Shown here piece after piece: positions 43,088 to 54,431 of a stretch of 64,000 nt of DNA; the stretch's first letter is position 1; each line of letters starts with the position of its first letter. Source of the DNA: Actinomyces vulturis (GTDB lineage: Bacteria; Actinomycetota; Actinomycetes; Actinomycetales; Actinomycetaceae). Below the pieces are notes generated by a model. That model saw only the letters and a list, made by a program, of their open reading frames with translations, was not told the origin of the DNA and made no database searches. The position numbers and the translations under genes are program-made. The stretch lies in assembly GCF_001687305.1 (NCBI RefSeq), contig NZ_LZRK01000004.1, positions 186,001 through 250,000 of the forward strand, written 5' to 3'.

Positions 43088-45397
43088 ATGAGCCCCTTTA
43101 ACCCCGTTCCGAACGAACTACGTGAATCAGGTACGGTTCTTGATTCCATCGTCGCCCAACGACGTACTCGTCTTGCTGAACTCACCGACCAGTACGCCGA
43201 GCTGGATCGCGCAACACTTCCCCGTTCTAATCGAAGTTTTGAAGATGCTCTACGTACCCGGAGCGCTGACGGTGCAGTACGTGAGCATGGACCGGCCATC
43301 ATCATGGAATGTAAGAGTGCTTCGCCCACGCTCGGTCAGATTGCCACGGATTACTCTGCCGCACTCCTTGCCCGCTCCTACGCTCCTGTTGCAGCAGCTA
43401 TCAGCGTGCTCACTGAGCCTGACCGCTTCGGTGGGGACTTAGCTGATGTGACTGCCGTACGTGACTCTGTGGATCTGCCGGTGCTGTGCAAAGACTTCAT
43501 CATTGACCCTGTTCAGGTACTGGCCGCCCGCTATCACGGAGCCGACGCCGTCTTGCTTATGCTCGCTATCCTCGATGATGAGCAGTACCGCTACCTTGCG
43601 GGCCTCGCTGCTTCCCTGGGCATGGATGTCCTCACTGAGGTGGACACTCCTGAGCATATGCAGCGCGCTGCTGAGTTAGGCGCTCGCATCATTGGTGTGA
43701 ACAACCGCAACCTGCGCACACTCGAAACCGATCTTGCTCGTACGGAGGAACTTGCTCCTCTGGCTCCTGCGGGCGTGGTGCTGGTGGCTGAGTCTGGTGT
43801 GAAGTCCCGTGACGATATTGAGCGCGTTGCTCCGTTTGTCGACGCCGTCCTAGTGGGTTCCAGCCTGTCTGGTTCCGATGATCCTGCCGCAGCTGCCCGT
43901 ACTCTTGCTGGCGGTCAGCCCACTATGGGTCCCCTTTACGCTGCTCGTCAGGCGGTCACTGCTGCGTGGACTCCACGGAGCCCTGAAGAAATGCGACGCC
44001 GCGGTGAGGCGATGGCTGCTCGTTACGCTGCGGATGTTCAGCAGGCAGTTGAGGGCGATCAGTCTGAGGCTTCTGTGGCCACGGTTGCTGGCGCTGGAGA
44101 CCCAGACCTGTCAACGCAGACCGGTACTCCTCTTCCCGCATACTTCGGTCCTTTCGGTGGTCAGTACGTCCCCCAGTTGTTAATTCCGGCGTTAGACCAG
44201 TTGGAAGAAGCTCTCGTGGATGCTCTCAATGACCCAACATTCATTAAGGAGGTGCGCGATCTTCTTCGCCTGTATTTGGGTCGCCCCACTCCCCTGACTC
44301 GTACTCGTAATCTTCCCCTTGATGGACAGGCCACCATCCTTCTTAAACGTGAGGATTTGGTGCATGGTGGTGCGCACAAGGGTAATCAGGTTCTTGGCCA
44401 GGCTCTTTTAGCAAAGCGCATGGGTAAGACGCGTATCATCGCCGAAACTGGGGCTGGTCAGCACGGTACTGCTACGGCGATGGTCTGTGCTCTTTTAGGT
44501 TTGGACTGCACCATTTACATGGGTGCCACCGATGTTGTTCGCCAGGCACCTAATGTCGAACGTATGGAACTCATGGGAGCGACTGTTGTTCCTGTTACCG
44601 CTGGTGCTGGCACCCTGAAAGATGCGGTTAATGAAGCACTCCGCGATTGGACGGCGTCTTTCGCCACCTCTCACTACCTGCTGGGCACAGCGGCTGGCCC
44701 GCACCCTTTCCCCACGATGGTGCGTGAATTCCACCGCGTTATTTCTACTGAAACCCGCGCCCAGGTACTCGACCAAATTGGTCGCCTCCCTGATGCTGTG
44801 GTGGCCTGTGTGGGTGGTGGTTCTAATGCCATCGGCATGTTCGCTGACTTCATCGATGATGAGGATGTTGCTCTGTTCGGCGTTGAGCCTGCTGGTCACG
44901 GTGTTGATACTGATGAGCACGGCGCCCCGATCCACGGCGGCAAGATTGGCGTTCTCCACGGTGCTCGCTCGTACCTTATGCGTACAGCGGAGGGGCAGAT
45001 TCGTGAGTCATACTCCGTGTCTGCAGGCTTGGATTACCCTGGCGTGGGCCCTGAACATTCATGGCTAAGTGCCAGTGGCCGAGCAACCTATGTGCCGGTG
45101 GGTGACGAAGAAGCCATTGAGGCATTCCTTGCTCTGTCCCGTCACGAGGGCATCATTCCTGCTCTGGAATCGTCGCACGCTTTGGCTTATGCACTGCGTC
45201 TGGCCAGGGAGGGACAGTTCACGGCCTCCGATGGTTCCGCTCCTGTCATCGTGGTGTGCCTATCCGGCCGTGGCGATAAAGATCTTGAACAAGTCCGCCA
45301 GGTACTGGGCGGTTCATTCTCTGAGGATGGTGCTGTTGCTCGCGCCGCTGAACTCGTGGGTCAGAATCATGATGACCGCATTGGAAAGGACCTGTGA
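43088..45397 (+). CDS. trpCB: Fused indole-3-glycerol-phosphate synthase / tryptophan synthase beta
   Basis: One 769-residue chain. TrpC part about 1-280: catalytic Lys76 in [29 protein letters not shown] and [11 protein letters not shown] linker to about 348 leads to Trp[19 protein letters not shown] Lys431 in [45 protein letters not shown] and [12 protein letters not shown]. The TrpB half resembles the enterobacterial type, except that the residue after the PLP Lys is Gly, where Thr is usual. GAGGA lies about ten bases before ATG 43088. TrpA follows with overlapping codons. Confidence 0.95.
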
Positions 45398-47981: not shown

Positions 47982-49955
47982 CTAGGGCTGACTCAACCGT
48001 TCTAACGCACCTAACACTGTGTCCCGATCAGTGGTACGCCATAAAGGTGGCATCGAATCAACAAGAAAAGAACCATATCGAGCAGATACCAAACGCGAAT
48101 CCAGCACTGCCACCACGCCACGATCATCAGTCCGACGAATCAAACGACCAGCCCCCTGAGCCATCAACAAAGCAGCATGCGTAGCAGCCACAGTCATAAA
48201 GGGATTCCCGCCAACGCTACGTACCTTTTCCATCCGTGCACTAGCCACAGGTTCCCCCGGACGCGGGAATGGAATACGGTCAATAAGCACTAAACGACAC
48301 GTGTGACCAGGAACATCTACACCCTGCCACAAGCTGACCGTCCCCACAAGACAAGCACGATCATCTTTAGCGAATTCTTCGACCAGACTAGGCAGTTGAT
48401 CTTCTCCCTGACAGAAAACCGGGAGGTCAGTTTCATCGCGAAGTACCTGTGCGGCGTCTTCAGCGGCTTGACGTGAAGAAAACAGACCGAGCATGCCGCC
48501 ATCACTGGCCTTAGCCAAGGCAACCACCTCGTCCAGCGCCTGGTCACTAATCCCCATCGACGGCGCAGGAAGGTGAGAAGCAACATACAAAATCCCCTGC
48601 TTCGCATACGTAAATGGACTACCTACATCCAGACCAGTCCATGATGCATCAGCCAAAGTCATACCGACGGTACGTGCCATGACATCAAACTTTCCGCCTA
48701 GTGCAAGAGTGGCTGAAGTAAGAATGGCGGTATGGTCATTGAACAGCGTGTTTGCCACCGCTCCGGCCACCTCAATGGGGGCGATCATAAGTCGCGCTGG
48801 ATCAACTCCCCCACGGGGACGCTCAATCCACGCCACATCGCGACACTGAGGAATAGAATCACTCAACGCACGGGTCACACAATCCACAAGATCAGCCACG
48901 GCAGTCCGGGCGACGCTGAGTGCACCAGATTGAGAAGAATCAGCCTGAACTTTAGCACGAATATCAGCATGCATCTGACGTGCGGCTTGCTCCACGCTAG
49001 CAAGCGCGGCACGCAAAGAAGCGCTAATAGTTTCCAAGCGTCCTTCTTCAAGTTCGGCTAGGGCAAGACCTAATTCTTGACCCGCCTGCATTAAGTCTTC
49101 CCCCAGGACATCAGCGTCTCGCCTCGCCGTTTTCGCCACGCGAGTCACCGACGCCGCAGAGATACTCACACTTCCCTGACTGCGTACCCGATCAGCTAAG
49201 TCATGCGCCTCATCAACAACAAGAACATCATGGTCAGGAAGAACGTGGTTGTTTCCTGCTACGGCGATTCCGAGCAAAGCATGATTGGTGACCACCACAT
49301 CCGCATCCTGGCAGTCATTACGGGCTAGTTGGGCGAAGCATTCGTCCTTCAGCGGGCATTTACCGCCCAAACATTCAGCTTTACTCACGCTAACTTGAGC
49401 CCAAGCTTTATCAGAAACCCCCGGAACCAGATCGTCGCGGTCCCCTGTTTCCGTGGTTGTAGCCCACGAACGAATACGAACGACTTGCTCCCCCAAAGAC
49501 GCAGTAGATGCTTTACCAACTTTGGAGGATTTACTGGATGTAGCTTCCTCAGCGTCGAAAAGAGTGGGCTCATCGGAGGGGTAGCCGCCACCCATCTTGT
49601 GCTTGCACAGGTAGTTGTTCCACCCTTTAAGTAGTGAAACCTTGGGTTCGTTGCCATGAACTGAGGCAATAGCACGTGCCGCTAAAGGAGCGTCTTTGGT
49701 GAGAATTTGACGCTGAAGAGCAAGGGTTGCCGTGGAGACCACGGCTTTGGTGCCGTGACAGACGCAAGCATTCATCACGGGGATGAGATAGCCTAAGGAT
49801 TTACCTGTGCCGGTTCCTGCTTGGATAAGGAGGTGGCGCTCATCGCTCATGGCGGAGTCGATTTCCTTCGCCATACGGATTTGGCCTTGGCGAGCCTTGC
49901 CACCAATTTCTTCTACGGCATGGTCAAGTGCCCGCTCTATCGCGGACTTGCTCAT
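47982..49955 (-). CDS. dinG: DinG-family ATP-dependent DNA helicase
   Basis: XPD/DinG-type 5'-3' helicase, about 657 residues. Walker A IQAGTGTGKSLGYL, motif II VVDEAHDL, motif VI QGAGRLIRRTDDRG. Fe-S cluster cysteines are plausible in NYLCKH, CLGGKCPLKDEC. ATG 49955 overlaps the hflX stop by four bases (ATGA), so the pair is coupled. An insertion rich in Ser/Lys (SSKSSKVGKAS) lies between the first Fe-S Cys and the rest. No SOS box was seen for it. Confidence 0.92.
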   Translation of the reverse strand: MSKSAIERALDHAVEEIGGKARQGQIRMAKEIDSAMSDERHLLIQAGTGTGKSLGYLIPVMNACVCHGTKAVVSTATLALQRQILTKDAPLAARAIASVHGNEPKVSLLKGWNNYLCKHKMGGGYPSDEPTLFDAEEATSSKSSKVGKASTASLGEQVVRIRSWATTTETGDRDDLVPGVSDKAWAQVSVSKAECLGGKCPLKDECFAQLARNDCQDADVVVTNHALLGIAVAGNNHVLPDHDVLVVDEAHDLADRVRSQGSVSISAASVTRVAKTARRDADVLGEDLMQAGQELGLALAELEEGRLETISASLRAALASVEQAARQMHADIRAKVQADSSQSGALSVARTAVADLVDCVTRALSDSIPQCRDVAWIERPRGGVDPARLMIAPIEVAGAVANTLFNDHTAILTSATLALGGKFDVMARTVGMTLADASWTGLDVGSPFTYAKQGILYVASHLPAPSMGISDQALDEVVALAKASDGGMLGLFSSRQAAEDAAQVLRDETDLPVFCQGEDQLPSLVEEFAKDDRACLVGTVSLWQGVDVPGHTCRLVLIDRIPFPRPGEPVASARMEKVRSVGGNPFMTVAATHAALLMAQGAGRLIRRTDDRGVVAVLDSRLVSARYGSFLVDSMPPLWRTTDRDTVLGALERLSQP

Positions 49956-51562
49956 GACAGATCGCATTCCTTCAAAGCGCTAGCCAAGGAACCATCCACG
50001 CGTGCCCTCACGTGCGTACCTTGCTCGGTATGTTCAAGGAATTCAATTTCCCCATCAGCGTGAATACGGGAAATAAGATCACCGCGGTTATAACCGATCA
50101 CCACATCAACTTCCACATTGGGGCGGGGAAGTGAATTGGCGATGCGTTCAGTGAGTTCATCCATTCCCTCACCGGTGCGGGCAGAGACGGCCACACATCC
50201 CGGATATTGCGTGCGCAGGGCTGCCAACGTGATCGAGTCTGCAAGGTCAGACTTATTGAGCACGATAATTTCGGGGACATCTGCTCCGCCGGGGATATCA
50301 GCAATCACTTCACGAACGGCCTTAACCTGACCAACGGGATCCGGGTGTGCAGCGTCCACAACGTGAAGAAGTAGGTCTGCTCCGGCGACTTCCTCAAGCG
50401 TGGAACGGAAAGCTTCCACCAGTTCGTGAGGAAGGTTGCGTACAAACCCCACGGTGTCAGTGAGCGTGTAGACGCGTCCATCTGCGGTAGTGGCGCTACG
50501 CACGGTGGGATCCAGGGTAGCGAAAAGAGCGTCATGGACCATCACGCCAGCACCGGTGAGACGGTTCAGGACGGAAGACTTCCCTGCGTTGGTATATCCG
50601 GCGATAGCAACAGAAGGAATCTGTGAGCGATGACGAGAGCCGCGCTTTGTTTCACGCGAGGGTGCCATGGCGTTAATGTCACGGCGTAGTTTGGCCATGC
50701 GATGACGAATACGGCGACGGTCCAATTCAATCTTGGTTTCACCAGGACCACGCGACCCAATACCCTGACCACCTGCTACACGGCCACCAGCCTGACGGCT
50801 CATCGATTCGCCCCAACCACGCAAGCGTGGCAAAAGGTATTCGAGTTGGGCCAGTTCTACCTGGGCTTTACCTTCGCGACTCTTGGCATGCTGAGCGAAA
50901 ATATCCAAGATCAAAGCGGTGCGATCAACAACCTTGACCTTGACCACGTCTTCCAATCCACGACGCTGGGAAGGGGCAAGATCGGAATCGACGATCACCG
51001 TATCGGCGCCGTTCGCAGCCACGATATCTGCCAATTCATTAGCTTTACCCTTGCCAAGATACGTGGCTGGGTCTGGGGTATCGCGTCGCTGTAGCAAAGC
51101 GTCAAGCACCTGAGAACCTGCGGTCTCAGCGAGCGCGGCAAGTTCTGCCAAGGAGTTCTCTGCTTCATCCGCACTGCCGGAGTACAGGCCTACGAGCACA
51201 ACGCGCTCAAGACGAATTTGTCGGTATTCAACTTCACTGACGTCTTCAAGTTCAGTGGATAAGCCCGCCACACGCTTGAGTGCAGCGCGCTCTTCACGTT
51301 CCATGGCGCCAGCATCCATACGCAGCGCTTCATCGTGCTGGTCCTGGGTGGAGGCGAGCGCAGCAGTGTGCCGAGCGAGGATTCGGGCTACCACATCATC
51401 AGCAGTGACAACATCGTTTGTTGAGGCGTTGGTGCTGGTCTGCGACGCATCAGTATGAGTCTCATTTGAGACGGGTGATGAGGAATTCTGAGAATGCTCG
51501 GTACGGCTCTCGTCGGTGGTCAATGAGTCGCAACTTGACTGATGCACGGTAGAGGAGTTCAA
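49952..51562 (-). CDS. hflX: GTPase HflX
   Basis: Ribosome-associated GTPase that splits stalled 70S ribosomes, 536 residues. HflX domain with DPATYLGKGKANEL and QVELAQLEYLLPRLRG, GxGPGETKIE (GSRGPGETKIELDRRRI), then the G domain: GYTNAGKSSVLN, TLTDTVGFVRNLP, NKSD. An N-terminal Ser/Thr/Asn-rich extension of about 55 residues is unusual. It starts at TTG 51562 with AAGGA five bases upstream. Confidence 0.95.
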   Translation of the reverse strand: MNSSTVHQSSCDSLTTDESRTEHSQNSSSPVSNETHTDASQTSTNASTNDVVTADDVVARILARHTAALASTQDQHDEALRMDAGAMEREERAALKRVAGLSTELEDVSEVEYRQIRLERVVLVGLYSGSADEAENSLAELAALAETAGSQVLDALLQRRDTPDPATYLGKGKANELADIVAANGADTVIVDSDLAPSQRRGLEDVVKVKVVDRTALILDIFAQHAKSREGKAQVELAQLEYLLPRLRGWGESMSRQAGGRVAGGQGIGSRGPGETKIELDRRRIRHRMAKLRRDINAMAPSRETKRGSRHRSQIPSVAIAGYTNAGKSSVLNRLTGAGVMVHDALFATLDPTVRSATTADGRVYTLTDTVGFVRNLPHELVEAFRSTLEEVAGADLLLHVVDAAHPDPVGQVKAVREVIADIPGGADVPEIIVLNKSDLADSITLAALRTQYPGCVAVSARTGEGMDELTERIANSLPRPNVEVDVVIGYNRGDLISRIHADGEIEFLEHTEQGTHVRARVDGSLASALKECDLS

Positions 51563-51626: not shown

Positions 51627-52283
51627 ATGGACACCTCGGGTTACTCTTATGGCGTGAACGATCATTACTTCAGTGCCATCCCGCAGTCCGATGATCACGA
51701 GCGCACCACGATGCTCACGATTCGCGGCCGCGAGTATGCCGTCACGAGCGCTGGCGGCGTGTTCTGTCCTGGTCGCGTGGATTTAGGTACTCAAGTTCTA
51801 CTCAAGCATGTTCCAGATCCCGCCCCGGAGAGTTTCTGCGTTGATGTGGGCTGTGGTTGGGGTCCGATTACTTTAGCGTTGGCTCATTCTTGCCCCGATG
51901 GCGAGGTAGTTGGCGTTGATGTCAATGAGCGCAGCATGGATTTAACTGCTCGTAACGCCAAGCAGGCTGGTTTTGAACATGTGTCTGTTCACCAGGCAGA
52001 GTCCTTTGCCCAGCATTTGGCTGACAGTGGCCAAAAGATTGACGTGATCTGGTCCAATCCCCCGGTACGTATTGGTAAGCAGGCACTTCATGCTCTGCTT
52101 GCTCTGTGGTTGCCTCTTCTGGCTGATGACGGCGAGGCGTGGCTCGTGGTGGGGAAAAACCTCGGCGCCGACTCCCTTGCGTCGTGGCTCCGTATGCAGG
52201 GCTGGAACGTAGAAAAGGCTCACTCTGCCAAGGGGTATCGAGTTTTGTGCGTGCGCCCGCAACTCGCCAAGGCTGCTGCCTGA
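51627..52283 (+). CDS. Class I SAM-dependent methyltransferase (RsmC/RlmG-like)
   Basis: A 218-residue methyltransferase from ATG 51627. A GTG at 51654, six bases after TACTCT, is an alternative leaderless start that would make the protein 209 residues. Motif I FCVDVGCGWGPITLALA, then VGVDVNERSMDLTARNA and the catalytic SNPPVRIGK mark the rRNA guanine-N2 methyltransferase group. It is divergent from hflX; the exact rRNA target is unknown. Confidence 0.85.
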   Translation: MDTSGYSYGVNDHYFSAIPQSDDHERTTMLTIRGREYAVTSAGGVFCPGRVDLGTQVLLKHVPDPAPESFCVDVGCGWGPITLALAHSCPDGEVVGVDVNERSMDLTARNAKQAGFEHVSVHQAESFAQHLADSGQKIDVIWSNPPVRIGKQALHALLALWLPLLADDGEAWLVVGKNLGADSLASWLRMQGWNVEKAHSAKGYRVLCVRPQLAKAAA

Positions 52284-52306: not shown

Positions 52307-53335
52307 TCAGTTTATTGGGTAGGCGATAGTTGCGATCTTTTTGACGCGTACGGTCACCATGAAAGGCAGGGATTCGTCCTCATCTTGCTCAGAGTCTGGC
52401 TCTTCACCCTTATCCAAGTTGATGAGCAAGTCTCGTGCACTGGTGGGAGGAATATTCACGGCAATTTCGCCATGAGGGGTCACCAGCATGACGCCATCGA
52501 GGGGATCATCGTTCCACAGGCTCAAGGCTGCACCACATGCACATGCGGCACCCAACCATGAGGTCACGGAAGCGTCCTGGGGGGAGAGGACGTCGAGAGC
52601 AGCACGCATCATGACGGCGTCGCCTTCGTCAGCAGTAGACGCTGTATCGAGAGTTTCTTCATCAAGGGCCACCATGAGTGCCACAGCGCAGCCGTCGGGT
52701 AGTTCCGGTTCACAGCGAACTGCACCGTTGGTAGCCAGTGCGCGGGCAAGTTGACGCGATTCATCCGCATCGGGGACAGCGACGACGAGGCACGGTTGAG
52801 GGGTAAGAATCGTGAGACCTGCCCATACACCATTCATGCCAGGGATGGTCACGGTAGTATCCCATCCATCCTTCATAGAAACGGTATGGGGATAGTGCAG
52901 GTTCATGAAACCTGCATCAATGATCCATGCGTCATTCATACGGGTTAGTGAGCAGGCGCCCATCCGTGTGCCCACCACGAGGCTGCCATCGGCGTCAGTG
53001 TGAGCCAGTGCGTGCTCATCGTCAGTGAGCACGCTGGTTGCCACGGCTTGTCCCGACAGTGACCATGAGGAAACCTGACCGTCTGCTTTATAAGCATCAA
53101 CGAACCATTCAGCTTCGGGCACTTCAGTGAGGTAGGCTTCTCCCCCAGGCATTGCACTGGTGCGAGCCAGACGCACAAATACATCGGCTCCGATTCCGCT
53201 ACGGCGATCGCAAAGTTCGCGGACCCAAGACTCGCTGATCTCCTCCGTACAGTCAGGATCAACGAGAACCAAGACGTCATCATCAGCAGCATGTGCTTTG
53301 ATCACTGTTCGGGTCGGGGAATCAGTCATGGCCAT
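52307..53335 (-). CDS. DapF-like protein lacking catalytic residues
   Basis: A 342-residue homologue of diaminopimelate epimerase at the usual dapF position next to miaA and hflX. Family traces: CDRRSGIGADVFVRL (42-56) and KADG (83-86). In active DapF the ADG is followed by SxxxxCGNG with the catalytic Cys; here the aligned residue is Ser92 within QVSSWSLSGQA. The second motif, normally GETxxCGTGA, has become WLGAACACGAA (260-270) with no Glu. The N-terminal Asn-containing GxxNDF has become AADDDV. The frame is intact and codon use is normal, so it is maintained rather than decayed. Enzyme activity is unlikely; role unknown. ATG 53329 is an alternative start. Confidence 0.75.
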   Translation of the reverse strand: MAMTDSPTRTVIKAHAADDDVLVLVDPDCTEEISESWVRELCDRRSGIGADVFVRLARTSAMPGGEAYLTEVPEAEWFVDAYKADGQVSSWSLSGQAVATSVLTDDEHALAHTDADGSLVVGTRMGACSLTRMNDAWIIDAGFMNLHYPHTVSMKDGWDTTVTIPGMNGVWAGLTILTPQPCLVVAVPDADESRQLARALATNGAVRCEPELPDGCAVALMVALDEETLDTASTADEGDAVMMRAALDVLSPQDASVTSWLGAACACGAALSLWNDDPLDGVMLVTPHGEIAVNIPPTSARDLLINLDKGEEPDSEQDEDESLPFMVTVRVKKIATIAYPIN

Positions 53336-53462: not shown

Positions 53463-54431
53463 TCAGCGTTTTCGCCGGTCAATAGTATCCATGGCTTGAG
53501 ATACCAGGGCCTCCCACGCCCAATCAGGAACCTCACCGTGCTCATCCATTTCAAGGTCAAGCCAGGTAATACGTGGGTCACGGCGGAACCATTTCAACTG
53601 ACGAGAGGCAAGTTTCCGTGTGGCCACAGCAGTGGCTTCAATGGCTTCATGTTCGTTCATCACCCCGTCAATCACCGCGATTGCTTGAGAGTAACCGATG
53701 GCTTTACTGGCTGTGGGGCCTTCACGCAAACCTTCTTGGAGAAGGCGTTCGGTTTCTTCAACCAGTCCCCCCTCAAACATCGCTTGTGCTCGACGAACAA
53801 TTCGTGCATTCAGCCCTTCCCTGTTGGTACGAATAGCCAGGTGACAGGTGGGAATACGGTCCACGTATGGTGGAAGTGAGGCAGAGAACTTGTGTCCGGT
53901 TAGTTCCATCACCTCCAGGGCACGGACGATCTTGCGTCGGTTGGAGGAGTCGATTTTTTGAGCGGATTCTGGATCTTTACGTTCAAGTTCACGATAAACC
54001 GCATTGAGCCCCTCAGCATCGACACGATTATCGATTTTCCTGCGAAGGTCACGGTCTGTGCCGGGAAATTCGAAATAATCGGTAACTGCCCGAACATACA
54101 GACCTGAGCCTCCAACCACAATGGGCTGACGCAGGCTTCCCGCGATTCGGTCGACGTCTGCGCAGGCATAGCGTTGGTAGGCGGCCACACTCGCCTCGTC
54201 GGTCACATGAAGCACATCAATTTGTGCATGCTCGATACCACGACGATCATCTACGGGAATCTTCGCTGTCCCAATGTCCATTCCACGGTAGAGCTGAGAA
54301 GCATCGGCGTTGATGATACCCACGAGTTCATTCGGTTTGTGGGGGGCAGGTGCAAGCGCACAGGCAATGTCCAAGGCTAGGTCAGATTTCCCACTAGCCG
54401 TGGGGCCTACTACTGCAATTAACGAATCCAC
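53463..54431 (-). CDS. miaA: tRNA dimethylallyltransferase
   Basis: Adds a dimethylallyl group to A37 of tRNAs reading UNN codons, 322 residues. P-loop VVGPTASGKSDLAL at 7-20, NADASQLYRGMDIGTAK, VVGGSGLYVRAV and TRKLASRQLKWFRRD are diagnostic. Encoded upstream of the DapF-like gene on the same strand. Confidence 0.96.
   Translation of the reverse strand: MDSLIAVVGPTASGKSDLALDIACALAPAPHKPNELVGIINADASQLYRGMDIGTAKIPVDDRRGIEHAQIDVLHVTDEASVAAYQRYACADVDRIAGSLRQPIVVGGSGLYVRAVTDYFEFPGTDRDLRRKIDNRVDAEGLNAVYRELERKDPESAQKIDSSNRRKIVRALEVMELTGHKFSASLPPYVDRIPTCHLAIRTNREGLNARIVRRAQAMFEGGLVEETERLLQEGLREGPTASKAIGYSQAIAVIDGVMNEHEAIEATAVATRKLASRQLKWFRRDPRITWLDLEMDEHGEVPDWAWEALVSQAMDTIDRRKR

Follow-up and report, generated by a model that had tools for sequence, protein, structure and literature searches.

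The gene at 52307..53335 (minus strand) of the window, the whole 64,000-nucleotide stretch of Actinomyces vulturis DNA that was analysed, encodes a catalytically dead orthologue of the diaminopimelate (DAP) epimerase DapF, a protein of 342 amino acids designated P0001. Eroded DapF proteins of the same kind recur across the genus, and we consider it probable that DapF, once a bypass through the DAP dehydrogenase Ddh had made it redundant as an epimerase, was kept as a non-catalytic protein. Interest in DapF has centered on its epimerase reaction and its use as an antibiotic target; in the literature on DapF, Actinomyces, ddh, pseudoenzymes and moonlighting that was searched, no title among those listed describes a dead DapF in Actinomyces.

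Reverse complementation of 52307-53335 yields a 342-residue translation with zero internal stops; the plus-strand frame contains stops. The full-length open frame of the original prediction was thereby confirmed, with its coordinates right and its strand assigned as minus. P0001 is also longer than a normal DapF, as had been proposed, and carries an acidic 13-residue insert near its C terminus (approximately residues 311-323; 52367..52405, minus strand, from the alignment) that is missing in 29 other aligned Actinomyces DapF proteins. In profile searches the protein does not reach the curated family scores, with 20.5 bits (E=2.6e-4) against TIGR00652, for which the cut-off is 114.65 bits, and 13.5 bits (E=0.076) against PF01678, for which it is 34.7 bits. 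DapF from C. glutamicum (5h2g) matches residues 11-98 with E=1.5e-8. The AlphaFold2 model of P0001 (pLDDT 83.6, pTM 0.82) adopts the DapF fold, and a Foldseek search with this model ranked DapF structures best, headed by C. glutamicum DapF 5h2y (E 3.5e-16, TMt 0.77).

The genomic context agrees with this assignment. The upstream neighbor is miaA, which encodes an IPP transferase (53463..54431, minus strand) and also served as the rate comparator below; a methyltransferase-small gene (rsmC-like; 51627..52283) adjoins dapF on the plus strand, and the next gene of the locus encodes an HflX-type GTPase (49952..51562, minus strand). A dapF locus with miaA and hflX is usual in actinobacteria. By its neighbors, scaffold and fold, P0001 is a very diverged DapF at the dapF locus, as originally proposed. 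The host represents a small-genome, diverged lineage of Actinomyces, and its miaA product is 53-61% identical to those of the relatives listed. Elsewhere in the window, a 769-amino acid reading frame at 43088-45397 combines indole-3-glycerol phosphate synthase (TrpC) with a PLP-dependent TrpB-like domain.

The active site was assessed at 12 positions that we take to be the catalytic and pocket residues of DapF, in E. coli/H. influenzae numbering: Cys73, Cys217, Asn11, Asn64, G74, N75, N157, N190, Glu208, Arg209, G218, and T219. In an alignment of P0001 with dapF homologues from 48 other Actinomyces genomes, all 12 are replaced. Both catalytic cysteines are absent: Ser92 occupies the Cys73 position (53060..53062), where the MCGN motif has become WSLS, and Trp260 occupies the Cys217 position (52556..52558), where SCGTG has become SWLGA. 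Ser251-Pro252 stands at Glu208-Arg209 (52580..52585), with the ERGxGET motif lost, Asp19 at Asn11 (53279..53281), and Lys83 at Asn64 (53087..53089; all on the minus strand and placed by alignment). The protein has changed at G74, N75, N157, N190, G218, and T219 as well, so that, cysteines excluded, 0 of 10 substrate-binding Asn, Glu and Arg and adjoining pocket residues are kept. A passage in PMC12039745 names Asn11, Gln44, and Glu208 as DapF active-site residues; Gln44 lies outside the 12 positions scored. The three motif losses read earlier from the window's letters, a serine at the catalytic cysteine, a second motif without GE and CGTG, and a missing N-terminal Asn motif, are all borne out.

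An alignment that places the catalytic Cys and Glu elsewhere, leaving P0001 a working epimerase, was considered as a rival reading. Cys265 and Cys267 lie only a few residues past the expected position, but the alignment with the intact relative G124 is gap-free in both motif blocks, and A266, A270, L271, and W274 match. Moreover, Asn11, Asn64, Asn75, Asn190, Glu208, and Arg209 are lost too, and flanking steps of the pathway, dapE over its cut-off and any match to lysA, are missing from the genome. The losses stand, and a misalignment is hardly credible.

In the window's genome (G000; 99.98% complete, 10 contigs), searches at E<=0.001 returned no match for lysA, ddh, dapB, or the actinobacterial dapD; lysA, dapB, and dapD were each matched in all of the other 48 Actinomyces genomes. 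For dapE there were three weak matches (best E 2e-5) and none over the cut-off, and no second dapF was found with the DAP_epimerase profile at E<=0.001, a model for which P0001 itself is too diverged. The sole DHDPS-family match, G000:C3:140989, was rejected as DapA at 164 bits against a dapA cut-off of 206. By models it is nearer to DapA than to NanA (164.8 versus 114.6 bits), and it adjoins a NanE-type epimerase gene that scores above the cut-off of its own model, along with genes for a ROK-family kinase and an ABC transporter, a region (L123 3068-9938, approximately G000:C3 139 to 146 kb) that, with its DHDPS-family lyase, is a possible sialic-acid operon. Even if this gene encoded DapA, the pathway would still be incomplete, since dapB, ddh, and lysA are missing. 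With no match to dapB, dapD, ddh, or lysA, and neither dapE nor dapA over the cut-off, the organism should not make DAP and would be expected to depend on external lysine. The peptidoglycan type was approached through MurE, which is present in G000 and reads ENPR where DNPR is the usual DAP motif; the motif is not decisive, and the MurE substrate is unsafe to call from sequence. In passages of PMC6612551, nothing bears on the peptidoglycan type of Actinomyces itself.

The original prediction had linked the dead DapF to an organism that no longer makes DAP. For the window's organism, loss of DAP synthesis is supported; as a general cause it fails, because 26 of 48 relatives lack one or both catalytic cysteines despite having lysA and dapB matches. 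Each of these 26 carries ddh over the cut-off and none carries dapE over the cut-off, and on gene content a ddh bypass would fit the pattern of losses better than the loss of DAP synthesis. A dapF homologue is present in 49 of 49 Actinomyces genomes, and of 47 relatives whose locus was examined, 45 have miaA as its neighbor. All 12 positions are intact in 21 of the 49, a single non-cysteine position has changed in G162, and 27 lack one or both catalytic cysteines (G207 was scored from the first half of the gene only). The 20 genomes with dapE over the cut-off all have an intact DapF (20/20), whereas among the 29 dapE-negative genomes a cysteine is lost in 27, G162 shows its one change, and only G176 is intact (Fisher 8e-12 for dapE versus cysteine loss, with genomes treated as independent though related). 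The ddh gene is over its cut-off in 42 of 49 genomes; all six ddh-negative, lysA-positive genomes have both intact DapF and dapE, and the seventh ddh-negative genome is that of the window. Since both cysteines are still present in 16 of the 42 ddh-positive genomes, ddh alone does not force their loss, and ddh, dapE, and intact DapF occur together in 14 genomes.

The erosion is graded, from 0 positions in G176, which has no dapE, through 1 in G162, 3 in G062, and 4-5 in the oris/naeslundii clade, to 12 in G000. The four A. oris genomes scored carry ddh and have Tyr in place of Cys217. Counting G000, the dapF tree shows 7 maximal all-eroded clades and the miaA tree shows 10, although the trees are arbitrarily rooted and several nodes are weakly supported; G207 was left out of the trees and codon models, and G197 and G200, with no miaA match in the part of their genome examined, were left out of the miaA tree. 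Position calls are less sure in the G149 group, whose 7 genomes have 4 extra residues inserted within the first motif block, and in G174 and G205, which have a gap in the second, but in all of these the motifs are plainly gone. The 26 ddh-positive eroded genomes all retain dapF, as an open frame in 25 and a broken one in G207. The latter was not accepted as a true pseudogene, the G207 genome being 82% complete and its ddh likewise split between frames. A match to the actinobacterial DapD is present in 48 of 49 Actinomyces genomes (e.g., L128, L125, and L126), with 47 of the matches over the cut-off, and the 28 relatives without dapE over the cut-off are included; the DapD core is largely conserved in 14 aligned sequences, 11 of them from genomes without dapE. 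A DapD succinylase has no obvious use without the subsequent enzymes.

A dead gene may simply be a relic in slow decay, left without function by the ddh bypass in the relatives or by loss of the pathway in the window's species and too young to have gathered stops. This is a possible account and the main rival to retention, strongest for the window's own gene, and its predictions were compared with rates of codon evolution estimated with a custom codon-likelihood script. Across five eroded clades, which hold 20 of the 25 modelled genomes with an eroded gene, omega was 0.078-0.133, compared to 0.022-0.093 in six intact sets, and omega=1 was rejected in every eroded clade and intact set (2dL 81.5 or more; 81.5-462.5 in the eroded clades). 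The estimator is biased low, since 18 neutral simulations (6 in each of three clades) returned 0.42-0.79 where 1 was expected, but the values observed in clades made up of dead copies are still well below that range. On the full tree, where the fits were stopped at a loose tolerance before full convergence, omega was 0.073 for intact, 0.114 for eroded, 0.106 for stem, and 0.131 for G000 branches. Fixing the eroded omega at 1 cost 735 lnL units in these fits, and equating it with the lower intact value cost 15.3 (2dL 30.6). The comparison of dN/dS across relatives that had been suggested as a check thus favors the retained but changed function of the original prediction, with purifying selection seen in the dead relatives.

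Retention was not uniform along the protein. The 21 intact genes share 140 invariant alignment columns, 128 of them outside the pocket; in these 128, the 25 eroded genomes retain the invariant residue in 2867 of 3200 cells, compared to 100 of 250 pocket cells (sorting cysteines excluded). None of the 26 scored dead copies deviates at 41 columns, which could simply be folding constraints. Under a conservative neutral expectation, the eroded crown should have gathered at least about 34 stop-creating changes and the G000 branch at least about 19; none is seen in the 25 eroded genomes or in G000. Loss of catalytic residues with constraint on the protein preserved, the mark of a pseudoenzyme, is accordingly found in the eroded Actinomyces clades. 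Neither these absent stops nor the omega values fit slow decay, whereas the relaxation of constraint relative to intact DapF does: besides the higher omega, the median dapF/miaA distance ratio rises from 0.63 for intact to 1.37 for eroded genes and 1.69 for G000. Constraint on the eroded genes is relaxed but not free. The window's own gene offers slow decay more room, keeping just 67 of 128 non-pocket invariant residues and 0 of 10 in the pocket (cysteines excluded). Fixing omega at 1 on its branch, which is saturated and shifted in composition, cost 16.9 lnL units (2dL 34), and its GC3 (0.55 for dapF, 0.44-0.61 for 11 window genes) may violate the model's assumption of stationary codon composition; the evidence for selection is therefore weaker when G000 is taken by itself.

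Low omega also bears on the idea that only an open frame is needed, translation through dapF averting polarity on downstream genes or coupling to a neighbor. The arrangement of miaA, dapF, and hflX, on the same strand and in that order in the window and in the loci examined from another genus of the family, g21, would suit such a role. However, it predicts near-neutral amino-acid change, at odds with omega of 0.08-0.13 and the kept scaffold residues, and dapF is separated from hflX by the rsmC-like gene, which lies on the opposite strand, so that we regard this explanation as very improbable.

A further alternative is a new enzyme, in which the DapF fold would act on another substrate with other catalytic residues. 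PhzF-type members of the DapF superfamily have made such a shift in substrate and catalytic residues, and in the Foldseek comparison the fold is common to PhzF and proline racemases; Chlamydia DapF is reported to be active on a second substrate (PMC5885031). Against this, the replacements differ among lineages (N, Y, F, A, T, S, L, or D for Cys73; S, Y, T, G, or W for Cys217), and no more than five columns combine invariance across the 25 eroded copies with variation among intact ones, none of them among the 12 scored pocket columns. Because the pocket columns show no shared new residue, a new enzyme is improbable. Loss of the pocket combined with constraint elsewhere is fittingly read as a non-catalytic scaffold function.

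The wider family was surveyed in a draw of 200 genomes, of which 109 have a dapF match and 115-116 have ddh over the cut-off (counts in the text use 115; the Fisher test used 116, hence 62 rather than 61 below, and Fisher values outside the genus treat related genomes as independent). The 74 dapF copies from 72 genomes of other genera comprise 63 intact, 8 eroded, and 3 unscored (G190, G045, and G198, dropped as frame-broken or partial, 3/74 rows); the eroded count includes G018, of which only the N-terminal part is present, as well as G060 and G021, whose matches each fall into two pieces. Intact copies are found in ddh-negative (41) and ddh-positive (22) genomes, and all 8 eroded copies are in ddh-positive genomes. 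Genus g21 contributes six eroded copies, with omega 0.085, and in the three g21 loci examined (G051, G106, and G118) the eroded copy sits at the native miaA-dapF-rsmC-hflX locus, as it does in G060 of another genus. In G051 and G106 (L212-L215) an intact copy also occurs elsewhere, suggesting a later replacement or acquisition.

Outright loss is, however, the commoner outcome in ddh-positive genomes outside Actinomyces: 55 of 83 have no detectable dapF, a count in which strongly diverged relics could be missed. Any second role of DapF is therefore not universal. Both this figure and the truncated gene of G018, an open reading frame of 178 amino acids outside the genus, are what slow decay would lead one to expect, but it does not account for the retention of dapF by 26 of 26 ddh-positive eroded Actinomyces, compared to 6 of 61 ddh-positive genomes without intact DapF outside the genus. 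Taken together with the rates and the absent stops, this leaves slow decay an unlikely explanation.

Based on these data, a model centered on retention would run as follows. In Actinomyces, Ddh would make meso-DAP directly, a bypass after which the cell would need neither DapE nor epimerization by DapF. One lineage after another would have lost dapE first, with decay of the DapF pocket following, while purifying selection preserved the polypeptide for an additional, scaffold-based role that needs no catalysis. This role would most likely consist of binding another protein and would be older than the loss of catalysis. The window's species appears to have gone further, losing the lysine/DAP pathway and retaining 0 of 12 pocket residues in a DapF that is still open and predicted to fold. 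In its broadest form, the model would make DapF of the Actinomycetaceae a two-function protein with an old, selected non-catalytic function, which becomes visible where ddh makes the epimerase redundant and is the sole function left in the window's species, without its lysine pathway; we see the case for and against this broader claim as evenly poised.

More generally, repeated natural inactivation of DapF under constraint would provide evolutionary evidence for a second role beyond E. coli and the Gram-negatives, and the dead Actinomyces proteins would be ready-made separation-of-function variants. In practical terms, inferring a DAP/lysine pathway from the presence of dapF can mislead in Actinomyces.

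P0001 resembles the diaminopimelate epimerase (TIGR00652, PF01678; C. glutamicum 5h2g/5h2y) in its fold, its locus beside miaA, and many scaffold residues; it differs from the enzyme in having neither the catalytic cysteines, nor Glu/Arg, nor any of the 12 scored pocket residues, in scoring under the family cut-offs, and in belonging to a genome without the DAP pathway. With the other eroded Actinomyces proteins (A. oris, A. naeslundii, A. denticolens, A. bovis, and others) it shares the miaA neighbor, the type of loss, and an open frame, but those genomes have matches to dapB, lysA, and ddh, whereas G000 has none and shows the deepest erosion. The one precedent found for a non-catalytic role is in E. 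coli, where DapF(C73&217A) binds and stimulates RppH (PMC4227774) and the dimer-breaking, inactive Y268A/R36A variant still does both (PMC7144940). Regulation of an RNA pyrophosphohydrolase is by this analogy just a candidate for the retained function. The likeness to the E. coli DapF-RppH system (PMC4227774; complexes 6d13 and 6vck) would lie in a non-catalytic role independent of the cysteines; in E. coli, however, the enzyme is intact and performs both jobs, while in P0001 the catalytic residues are gone, as judged from sequence.
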